Below are positions 37,529 to 38,623 of a DNA stretch of 64,000 nucleotides, piece after piece. The translations under genes were made by a program, and so were the position numbers. The first letter of the stretch is position 1; every line of letters begins with the position of its first letter. The notes beneath the pieces were generated by a model. It saw nothing but the letters and a program-made list of their open reading frames with translations. It did not search any database and was not told the origin of the DNA. Origin of the DNA: Pedobacter changchengzhani (GTDB taxonomy: Bacteria > Bacteroidota > Bacteroidia > Sphingobacteriales > Sphingobacteriaceae); the NCBI RefSeq assembly GCF_004354365.1, contig NZ_SJCY01000003.1, forward strand, positions 124,001-188,000, written 5' to 3'.

Positions 37529-37876
37529 ATGAAAATTAGAGTTCAATCAATCCACTTCACAGCAGACAGTAAGTTGTTAGATTTTATACAGAAGAAGGTA
37601 GACAAACTTGATCAATTTTTTGATCAGATTATTAGTGGGGAAGTGTATTTAAAGTTAGAAAACGTAGATAGTGAAGCAAACAAAATTAGCGAGATTAAGC
37701 TGAACGTTCCGGGTGATGTTTTGTTCGCCAAAGAGCAGTGCAAATCTTTCGAAGAAGCTACGGATTTAGCCATTGAATCGTTAAGAAAACAAATTACTAA
37801 ACATAAAGATAAAACGAGAGCTAAGGCGAGTGAGCATAAAGCTATATTAAGCGAAAGCGAAACAGAAGATTTTTAG
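37529..37876 (+). CDS. hpf: Ribosome hibernation-promoting factor
   Basis: 115 aa, HPF/RaiA family, short form. It carries MKIRVQSIHFTADSKLLDFI and the acidic-basic helix EEATDLAIESLRKQITKHKDK. It binds the 30S A/P site region in stationary phase to dimerise or silence ribosomes. Downstream of xerC with a strong SD, possibly giving it translation that depends on free anti-SD. Confidence 0.9.
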   Translation: MKIRVQSIHFTADSKLLDFIQKKVDKLDQFFDQIISGEVYLKLENVDSEANKISEIKLNVPGDVLFAKEQCKSFEEATDLAIESLRKQITKHKDKTRAKASEHKAILSESETEDF

Positions 37877-37902
37877 AATTAGAAATTTTGATAAACTATA
37901 TT

Positions 37903-37936
37903 GGCAGCGCATTAAAAAATGTGCTGCCTTTTTATT
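37903..37936 (+). terminator. Terminator of hpf
   Basis: GGCAGCGCA / TGTGCTGCC stem with a short A-rich loop and T-run. Confidence 0.85.
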
Positions 37937-38315
37937 TTAATAGCTTGCTTAGTAGTTGCACCGATATTTATTGATAAGGGTGAATGTAGCGGTAGCAAAT
38001 TCTTTTCTTAGATTAATAATCAATTTTTTGGTAAATTAAATGGAAGTATTGCATCCAAACGCTTATTAATTTTTTTTTGTTTTTTATAGCTAGATAGTCC
38101 CATCCATCATCAAGATTTTTCTACATTAAAATTTTTAAGTTGTTTTTGCCTTATTACCTAATTTTTGTCGATGATAAATTAATTATAAGTGTTGTACATT
38201 AAAAATATAAATAAATATTAAAGCTGATGTTAATTTTAAATAACTGATTATTAACCCACTATTTTACAAAAAGATTAAGCTTTAAAAATTACGCTTATTT
38301 TTTTTCAAATATATT
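37937..38315. other. Gene-free AT-rich stretch before the tRNA promoter
   Basis: About 380 nt with no ORF or RNA that I can support; it is AT-rich with long T-runs and could act as an upstream activating (UP-like) region for the tRNA-tuf promoter. Confidence 0.4.
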
Positions 38316-38344
38316 TTGAATAGAGATATAAATGTGTAGATTTG
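38316..38344 (+). promoter_or_regulatory. Promoter of the tRNA-tuf cluster
   Basis: TTG (38316-38318), 18 nt, TAGATTTG (38337-38344). It lies 72 nt before the first tRNA-like sequence. Confidence 0.7.
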
Positions 38345-38415
38345 CATTCCATTTGAGAGAGGGCATTGTTTCAATAACCAAGTGGACTGTTCTGTAAAAG
38401 TATAAAAAAATAAAA

Positions 38416-38497
38416 GCCTCCTTAGCTCAGCTGGTAAAGTCCCGAAACTTCGGGATAAACAGTAAGGTCATTGGTTCGTAGGAATACATGAGAGGTT
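38416..38497 (+). pseudogene. Relic of tRNA-Thr with replaced anticodon arm
   Basis: The first 21 nt (acceptor 5' strand and D-arm start) match the true tRNA-Thr at 38518 exactly, and GGTCATTGGTTCG of the T-arm region also matches. The anticodon arm, however, is replaced by the palindrome TCCCGAAACTTCGGGA (38440-38455). The T-arm and 3' acceptor strand are degraded as well. No functional anticodon remains. Confidence 0.75.
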
Positions 38498-38517
38498 AAA
38501 TTGAAAAGAGAATAAAA

Positions 38518-38590
<73 letters not shown>

Positions 38591-38623
38591 CTTTTTATTT
38601 ACATGTCTGTAAATAAAACAGTG

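Follow-up and report, generated by a model that had tools for sequence, protein, structure and literature searches.

The DNA considered here, called the window, is a stretch of 64,000 nucleotides from one contig of Pedobacter changchengzhani, whose genome is a 3.9-Mb draft in 35 contigs. It carries xerC, hpf, tRNA-Thr(UGU), tRNA-Tyr, tRNA-Gly, tRNA-Thr(GGU), tuf, tRNA-Trp and nusG, the protein names being presumptive and taken from likeness and gene order. Immediately upstream of tRNA-Thr(UGU) lies a partial copy of that gene with a small hairpin in its anticodon arm, and the features concerned are these.

38310 to 38415, forward strand: promoter-like element and leader of the tRNA-Thr operon, from comparison by eye with 29 relatives
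38416 to 38517, forward strand: tandem unit of 102 nt, a hairpin-bearing tRNA-Thr(UGU) copy with a spacer ending in ATAAAA, sharing 21 nt and 14 nt of exact identity with the intact gene
38440 to 38455, forward strand: hairpin TCCCGAAACTTCGGGA, folding as a 7-bp stem, where the 5' anticodon strand and the greater part of the anticodon loop would be
38518 to 38591, forward strand: intact tRNA-Thr(UGU), parent of the copy (ARAGORN; Rfam RF00005, 71.9 bits)
2447 to 2464, no strand assigned: TTCCGATAGCTATCGGAA, a different dispersed palindrome outside the tRNA array, with 4 exact copies in the genome and 12 sites at up to 2 mismatches (control 0)

An earlier note on this DNA had placed the copy 102 nt upstream of the intact tRNA-Thr with the first 21 nt identical, which alignment confirms. 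After these 21 nt the copy continues with AAG, the hairpin TCCCGAAACTTCGGGA, TAAACAGTAAGGTCATTGGTTCG (within which lies the second exact block, AGGTCATTGGTTCG, of 14 nt), a diverged stretch and ATAAAA, a motif that precedes both the copy and the intact gene. The extent first given, 38416-38497, covers the tRNA-like part, with the repeated unit running on to 38517. The anticodon arm was also said to be swapped for a perfect palindrome; the 5' strand and most of the loop have indeed been replaced, but the 3' part persists in altered form, TAAACAG for TAATCAG, and TCCCGAAACTTCGGGA is not a perfect palindrome, as it consists of 7 bp and 2 central nucleotides.

Neither ARAGORN nor Rfam calls a tRNA at 38416-38517, so that tRNA models do not recognise the cloverleaf of a functional tRNA in the copy, and its fold is no better than that of shuffles (z -1.04). 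There is no intron family among the Rfam matches in the window and the insert is 16 nt, which does not make it a group I intron. The promoter and leader of the operon are, by eye, similar in 29 relatives that lack the copy, so the copy sits between leader and intact gene. Neither the copy nor a TCCCG hairpin was found within 600 nt upstream of tRNA-Thr(UGU) in 29 other genomes of the genus (0/29, with L043 read over 175 nt). About 350 nt (window about 37936-38300) separate the hpf terminator from the tRNA promoter, two elements that nearly abut in many relatives. No decayed GIY-YIG gene was seen just upstream of the copy in six frames of 37801-38520, nor was any GIY-YIG gene found adjoining it, so the Thr copy itself offers no protein in which to look for the domain of a system like that of the nuclease SegB, discussed below, and has no free-standing gene of that kind at its side.

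The hairpin is far from rare in this genome. At up to 2 mismatches TCCCGAAACTTCGGGA occurs at one place in the window on both strands (shuffles 0.02), and genome-wide there are 3 exact copies and 20 strand-matches at up to 2 mismatches, against 3 for the reversed control. The pattern TCCCGA and TCGGGA, 2 to 6 nt apart, has 35 sites in the genome against 0 in the control, which is over-representation of the REP type, and the number of such hairpins is patchy in the genus, ranging from 0 to 105 per genome across 79 genomes. The count of both palindromes that the earlier note had called for thus came out far above background (35 against 0 for TCCCGA sites, 12 against 0 for TTCCGATAGCTATCGGAA, which is present at 2447 as it had reported), and a chance palindrome was rejected by the shuffle and reversed controls.

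Among 25 listed of the 35 TCCCGA hairpins 8 are in tRNA copies, 1 is in a 5S relic and 1 is in a 23S gene; the last of these, at L118, was tried as a relic and rejected, as it is within a full-length 23S rRNA gene. The 5S rRNA relic, recognised by likeness, lies at about 510-650 of L123 (the start of contig C31 of the same genome), some 300 nt behind an intact 5S, it has two TCCCGA hairpins substituting loop regions, and Rfam calls the intact 5S nearby but not the relic. TCCCGA hairpins also occupy the loops of dispersed CGTCATGCTG...CAGCATC repeats (L102 15986, L111 2212, L122 2604), and another dispersed repeat ends in TCCCGAAATTTCGGGATTAAAACGCCC or a close form (L103 2340, L117 3188, L016 1501). 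That the hairpins sit in stem-loops, as first proposed, is therefore a fair description, covering tRNA copies, the 5S relic and the loops of the CGTCATGCTG repeats.

The proposal of a mobile mini-palindrome family holds for the over-representation and the patchiness, whilst mobility of the hairpin itself is unproven. What stays constant in tRNA copies is a stereotyped tandem array, often accompanied by a GIY-YIG gene, whereas the hairpin sequence differs between loci, and no enzyme that would mobilise the palindrome was found. Across 79 genomes of the genus the number of hairpins correlates with that of Y1 transposases, with a Spearman coefficient of 0.83, and in the genus genomes with that of the GIY-YIG family at 0.71, kinship being ignored in both. 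Despite the former correlation the TCCCG hairpin was rejected as the REP of Y1 transposases, because none of 12 transposase loci of about 1.9 kb carries it beside the gene, other palindromes being found there.

Hairpin-armed copies neighbour 5 of the 35 tRNA genes of this genome, those for Thr, Asn, Pro, Met and Arg. Further copies were sought by BLAST, with the 35 tRNA genes as queries and 392 kb surrounding tRNAs and hairpins as the target, and the Met copies came from the hairpin pattern instead. Three tRNA-Asn copies with TCCCGCAGGTGCGGGA in the anticodon arm surround the intact gene, two further Asn copies, repeated in tandem at 406 nt, have hairpins in both anticodon and T arm and each close a GIY-YIG ORF of about 100 aa at its 3' end, and another Asn copy lies behind a decayed GIY-YIG ORF. 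The tandem tRNA-Pro copy holds one of the 3 exact copies of TCCCGAAACTTCGGGA in its T arm and is followed by a more diverged second Pro copy. tRNA-Arg(CCU) has three tandem 3' ends 86 nt apart with a different hairpin after GAGTTC, and in three tandem tRNA-Met copies the D arm holds hairpins and so does the position of the 5' anticodon strand. A hairpin of one type recurs in the Pro T arm, the Met D arm and the Asn anticodon arm. No GIY-YIG gene was found beside the Pro, Met and Arg copies of this genome, and BLAST matches to the 3' ends of Lys and Asp tRNAs yielded no clear hairpin. Between two hairpin-bearing tRNA-Pro copies (L094 6600-7270) there is an ORF that presumably resembles a fragment of a conjugative-transfer protein. 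A decayed GIY-YIG ORF with a stop (L136 1371-1665, contig C30 of this genome) is close behind tRNA-Leu(CAA), where a hairpin copy was not seen. The tRNA-Asn leader of this genome is very like that of Pedobacter chitinilyticus.

Similar arrangements are widespread. A scan of contigs with the Asn-linked GIY-YIG protein gave 79 loci, from the best 80 of 104 confirmed, mainly in Pedobacter, Chitinophagaceae, Chryseobacterium and other Flavobacteriales, Bacteroidales, Balneolaceae and Chlorobiota, some loci standing under odd metagenome labels. In these 79 loci (best 80 of 104) a tRNA-Asn copy with a hairpin in the anticodon arm, defined as a 16-nt hairpin with at least 6 of 8 pairs followed by TTAATCA, is at the 3' end of the ORF in 45, of which 28 also have an intact tRNA-Asn upstream; the other 34 miss this strict 3'-end definition, several of them being truncated, decayed or beside other tRNAs. 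As a control, left-flank matches without TTAATCA gave 7 hairpins in 861. The order seen in the window, in which the hairpin copy precedes the intact gene by 76-113 nt (a spacing that includes an added 9-nt offset between the two search anchors), is present in 14/79 loci (best 80 of 104). Hairpin copies therefore lie both upstream and downstream of intact tRNA genes, and those downstream commonly form the 3' end of a GIY-YIG gene. In its fullest form the arrangement is a unit of about 400 bp, comprising an intact tRNA, a terminator, a small GIY-YIG gene and a tRNA-Asn copy with a hairpin for anticodon arm, the ORF typically ending in LAQLVRVPxxRD*, read from tRNA copy and hairpin (47 loci listed).

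The GIY-YIG family is itself tied to tRNA genes. There is a tRNA call within 250 nt upstream in 47/79 loci (best 80 of 104), made up of 40 Asn, 6 other intact tRNAs and 1 hairpin copy misread as Trp. In the genus the family is found at E 1e-10 in 32/79 genomes, and of 30 family loci read there 25 have a tRNA within about 1.5 kb, for Asn, Val, Met, Gly/Leu, Asp, Leu, Arg, Ser or Ile. Thus, as in a SegB-like system, the family consists of free-standing genes beside tRNAs (47/79 loci of the best 80 of 104; 25/30 genus loci). The TCCCG hairpin is mostly absent from the genus loci linked to Val, Asp, Leu(GAG), Arg and Ser, the Val-linked ones having none. Tandem arrays were observed at several GIY-YIG/tRNA loci; genome G080 has eight nuclease copies about 400 nt apart, the first units read holding tRNA-Leu(UAA) copies with TCCCGACCTAGAGTCGGGA for anticodon arm, and in G087 tRNA-Met copies are in tandem with the nuclease and the hairpin differs. 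In Candidatus Parvibacillus calidus (L189) tRNA-Asn hairpin copies with TCATGGAATTCCATGA lie about 431 nt apart and ARAGORN calls them tRNA-Trp(CCA), so hairpin copies are a source of false tRNA annotation.

The class is not limited to one isotype. A pattern search for anticodon-arm hairpins matched 14/395 genomes, with 0 in the control, adding Gly, Lys, Thr(UGU) and Thr(GGU) as well as one Asp copy with its hairpin in the T arm. The Thr(GGU) copy immediately precedes its intact gene, within a Tyr-Gly-Thr-Trp run that resembles that of the window. The corresponding T-arm pattern matched 23 of 395 genomes, yet 8 genomes match its reversed control, and of 20 T-arm loci read only 4 are clear T-arm tRNA copies (Phe twice, Cys, Arg); an Asn copy of this genome (L322) matches the pattern through its D loop. 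T-arm hairpins directly after GTTC were seen in Pro, Arg(CCU), Phe, Cys and Arg(ACG). Elsewhere in Bacteroidota the isotypes are Asn, Gly, Asp, Lys, Leu, Met, Phe, Cys, Arg and both Thr, with GIY-YIG motifs adjoining the Asp, Gly and Phe cases, whilst the loci with the Lys, Cys, Arg and both Thr cases yielded none.

In the linked family the GIY-YIG domain (PF01541) scored above cut-off in 4/4 proteins tested, and Y5, Y16, G18 and R26 are kept in 28/28 aligned members, E64 in at least 90%; these we take to be the catalytic residues of the GIY-YIG family. Between genomes the nuclease is under purifying selection, dN/dS being 0.24, 0.13 and 0.08 in the 3 of 78 pairs with usable dS. Selection is less clear on the copies within tandem arrays, one of those at L189 being frameshifted. 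Searches of 50,697 phage and 72,556 plasmid records for a home of the nuclease gave no match at E 1e-5.

Whilst the sequence of the hairpin varies between loci (TCCCG..., TCATGGAATTCCATGA, TCCGCCGGCTGGCGGA, CTGCCTAACGGCGGACAG), its pairing is kept. For 45 distinct 16-mers from the Asn anticodon arm, chosen by their flanks and not by pairing, 92.4% of cells are paired against 80.1 when shuffled, and in 35 cells both sides have changed, where shuffles give 11.0 (0/500 as high), with further pair types at 13 against 10.6 (29/500 as high). The covariation score is 0.296 against 0.075 for shuffled sets and at most 0.120 when slid. The two middle codons of the ORF in the hairpin vary freely (HV, YV, KL, RS, RP, NF), which points to a constraint or an origin at the level of nucleic acid. 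One upstream Asn copy forms a long nested stem (z -3.35), in which CTGGTTA of the D loop and TAATCAG pair on either side of the hairpin. Upstream copies lack the 3' half of the tRNA and downstream copies lack the 5' acceptor strand. A foreign 3' half traced by its T stem was rejected, as the T stems mostly agree with the local intact tRNA (24 loci, by eye; L149 and L152 differ). A known RNA family was likewise rejected, since only tRNA, Flavo-1 and SAM matches were found in 14 loci, and no intron family in Rfam matched these 14 loci with hairpin copies. The Flavo-1 sRNA matches include L094 9669-9748, L123 795-891 and L138 1334-1386 (this genome and Pedobacter chitinilyticus).

Empty and filled sites can be compared at tRNA-Asn, surveyed at 30 loci of the genus, with a single locus taken from each genome even where, as in many, there are two. 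Hairpin copies are found in this genome and 3/29 others and are absent in 26/29, GIY-YIG ORFs being present at L251 and L255, and in some relatives two tRNA-Asn copies, both intact, stand in tandem. The leaders of L255, a filled site, and L261, an empty one, are almost identical as far as CCAGTACTCCTTCT and the adjoining TAGCTCA.CTGGTTAGAG, after which there is the hairpin in L255 and CATCTGACTG in L261, then TTAATCAGAGGG in both. Thus 16 nt stand where the empty site has 10 nt, the position is fixed, and beyond it come a second leader and the intact gene. Of the precise empty sites that the earlier note had proposed to look for in relatives, this is the one close comparison, and it is a replacement of 10 nt, not a clean insertion.

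It is about an even chance that the Thr feature belongs to a recurrent class of tandem tRNA copies in which one arm, usually that of the anticodon, is exchanged for a small hairpin, driven by GIY-YIG endonucleases that target tRNA genes. By analogy with SegB, the nuclease would be a free-standing tRNA-directed homing endonuclease cutting the tRNA gene in the anticodon or T arm. Repair of the break against neighbouring tRNA halves may then produce the tandem units, and the hairpin would remove both cutting site and tRNA function to leave a dead, immune copy, with an intact tRNA presumably retained at each step. The Thr copy, whose membership rests on anatomy, is probably an orphan of the class without a nuclease of its own, and may be a leftover or a target in trans. 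The counts at Asn loci, the multi-isotype design, the proximity to tRNAs, the covariation, dN/dS, the empty and filled pair and the precedent of SegB all count for this reading. Against it count the copies without a GIY-YIG gene (Thr, Pro, Met and Arg here; Lys, Thr, Cys and Arg elsewhere), the Val-, Asp-, Leu(GAG)-, Arg- and Ser-linked loci mostly without the TCCCG hairpin, T stems that mostly match the local intact tRNA and so do not point to a foreign 3' half, and tandem nuclease copies that are not clearly under selection, one at L189 being frameshifted. The intact tRNA gene also keeps the presumed cutting site, the model giving no account of the immunity of that gene and no reason for the palindrome.

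Apparently the class points to an undescribed kind of mobile element living on tRNA genes. A bolder form, held tentatively and at somewhat under even chances, is of a tRNA-parasitising element of about 400 bp in Bacteroidota and neighbours, using about ten isotypes, in which a minimal GIY-YIG gene between tRNA halves would enter the anticodon or T loop, restore a working tRNA at one end and leave a palindrome-sealed, cut-proof copy at the other, with short units that lack the ORF, such as the Thr copy, as non-autonomous derivatives.

It is also conceivable, albeit unlikely, that the hairpin is a REP-like mobile mini-palindrome that enters or is copied into the tips of stem-loops, with duplicated tRNA and 5S as harmless landing places and the link to GIY-YIG genes secondary. 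Hairpins in the 5S relic and the loops of other repeats fit this, as do the 35 sites against none in the control, the patchy counts and the correlation of 0.83 with Y1 transposases (79 genomes, kinship ignored), but the 12 transposase loci have other palindromes and none of the TCCCG kind, and in the Asn anticodon arm the place is constant whilst several unrelated hairpin sequences fill it. There is a slim chance that tRNA genes were simply duplicated in tandem and then decayed, template switching having produced the hairpins; tandem tRNA duplication is common and there are relatives with two intact tRNA-Asn copies in tandem, yet such a course would have to repeat an identical exchange at an identical position across many genera and with many different palindromes, leave the flanks exact where an arm is wholly replaced, and explain the linkage to GIY-YIG genes. 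Neither background frequency nor plain decay, the outcomes that the earlier note had named as contrary to its idea, fits the evidence.

Two further explanations concern the tRNA copies themselves. That they have a function as RNA within the tRNA transcripts, such as insulating against misfolding or taking part in processing, is quite doubtful; upstream copies do lie between promoter and intact tRNA and the stems do covary, one Asn copy even having its nested stem at z -3.35, but for the Thr copy the fold does not surpass that of shuffles (z -1.04), such copies are absent at 29/29 Thr loci and 26/29 tRNA-Asn loci of the genus, and the missing 3' half of upstream copies and 5' acceptor strand of downstream ones also speak against function. 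It is very improbable that integrative elements using the anticodon or T loop left the copies behind as scars of their attachment sites. Integrases do cross over at these loops, but the units measure 76-113 nt or about 400 nt, the ones that were read have a GIY-YIG ORF or no long ORF, and upstream copies keep the 5' half, which is not duplicated by integration at the 3' end of a tRNA.

If the preferred reading of nuclease-driven copies is true, odd tRNA pseudogenes would be legible as scars left by selfish nucleases in a phylum's most conserved genes, and GIY-YIG proteins with C-termini read from tRNA sequence would be accounted for. The principle of SegB, nuclease-driven tRNA amplification, would then reach from phages to bacterial chromosomes, with the putative sealing by palindromes with covarying stems as a new detail. 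No description of hairpin-replaced tRNA copies with GIY-YIG genes was found in the open-licence papers searched, judged by title and opening of the abstract.

Several known systems share part of this anatomy. Group I introns with homing endonucleases occupy the anticodon loops of tRNAs, and the location at or close to the anticodon (positions 34 and 35 in Asn and Gly) and the homing endonuclease partner are alike, whereas here there are only 16 nt, without an Rfam intron match (14 loci) and without a splicing partner. Double-hairpin elements are known in organelle genomes and, as here, are tiny hairpins in tRNA and rRNA surroundings, but the present hairpins are single, bacterial and tied to tandem tRNA copies and GIY-YIG genes. 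SegB of T-even phages was reportedly the subject of work by Brok-Volchanskaya in 2008. REP/RAYT systems also have short, dispersed and patchy palindromes, and CGTC-tagged REPs of Bacteroidetes are reported without a dedicated transposase, going by the available part of that source (PMC3733652); the TCCCG hairpin differs in being absent at 12 Y1-transposase loci and concentrated in tRNA copies.

The closest likeness is to SegB, which in the portion of the account available is a free-standing GIY-YIG homing endonuclease of T-even phages beside tRNA genes, cutting inside them with a preference for RAWTSGAAC (T loop, other strand) that is not strictly needed (PMC13096335). According to the same portion, the tandem amplification of tRNA and truncated segB by recombination requires SegB (PMC13096335). 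Shared with it, as far as that portion goes, are a GIY-YIG gene adjoining tRNAs of many isotypes, the repetition of tRNA and nuclease as tandem units, recombination of tRNA sequence with the nuclease gene's 3' end, and the T-loop motif (PMC13096335). Two things set the present class apart, the palindrome-armed tRNA copies, none of which was found described for SegB in that portion (PMC13096335), and the setting, SegB being a phage protein whilst the proteins here are of about 100 aa and encoded on bacterial chromosomes.
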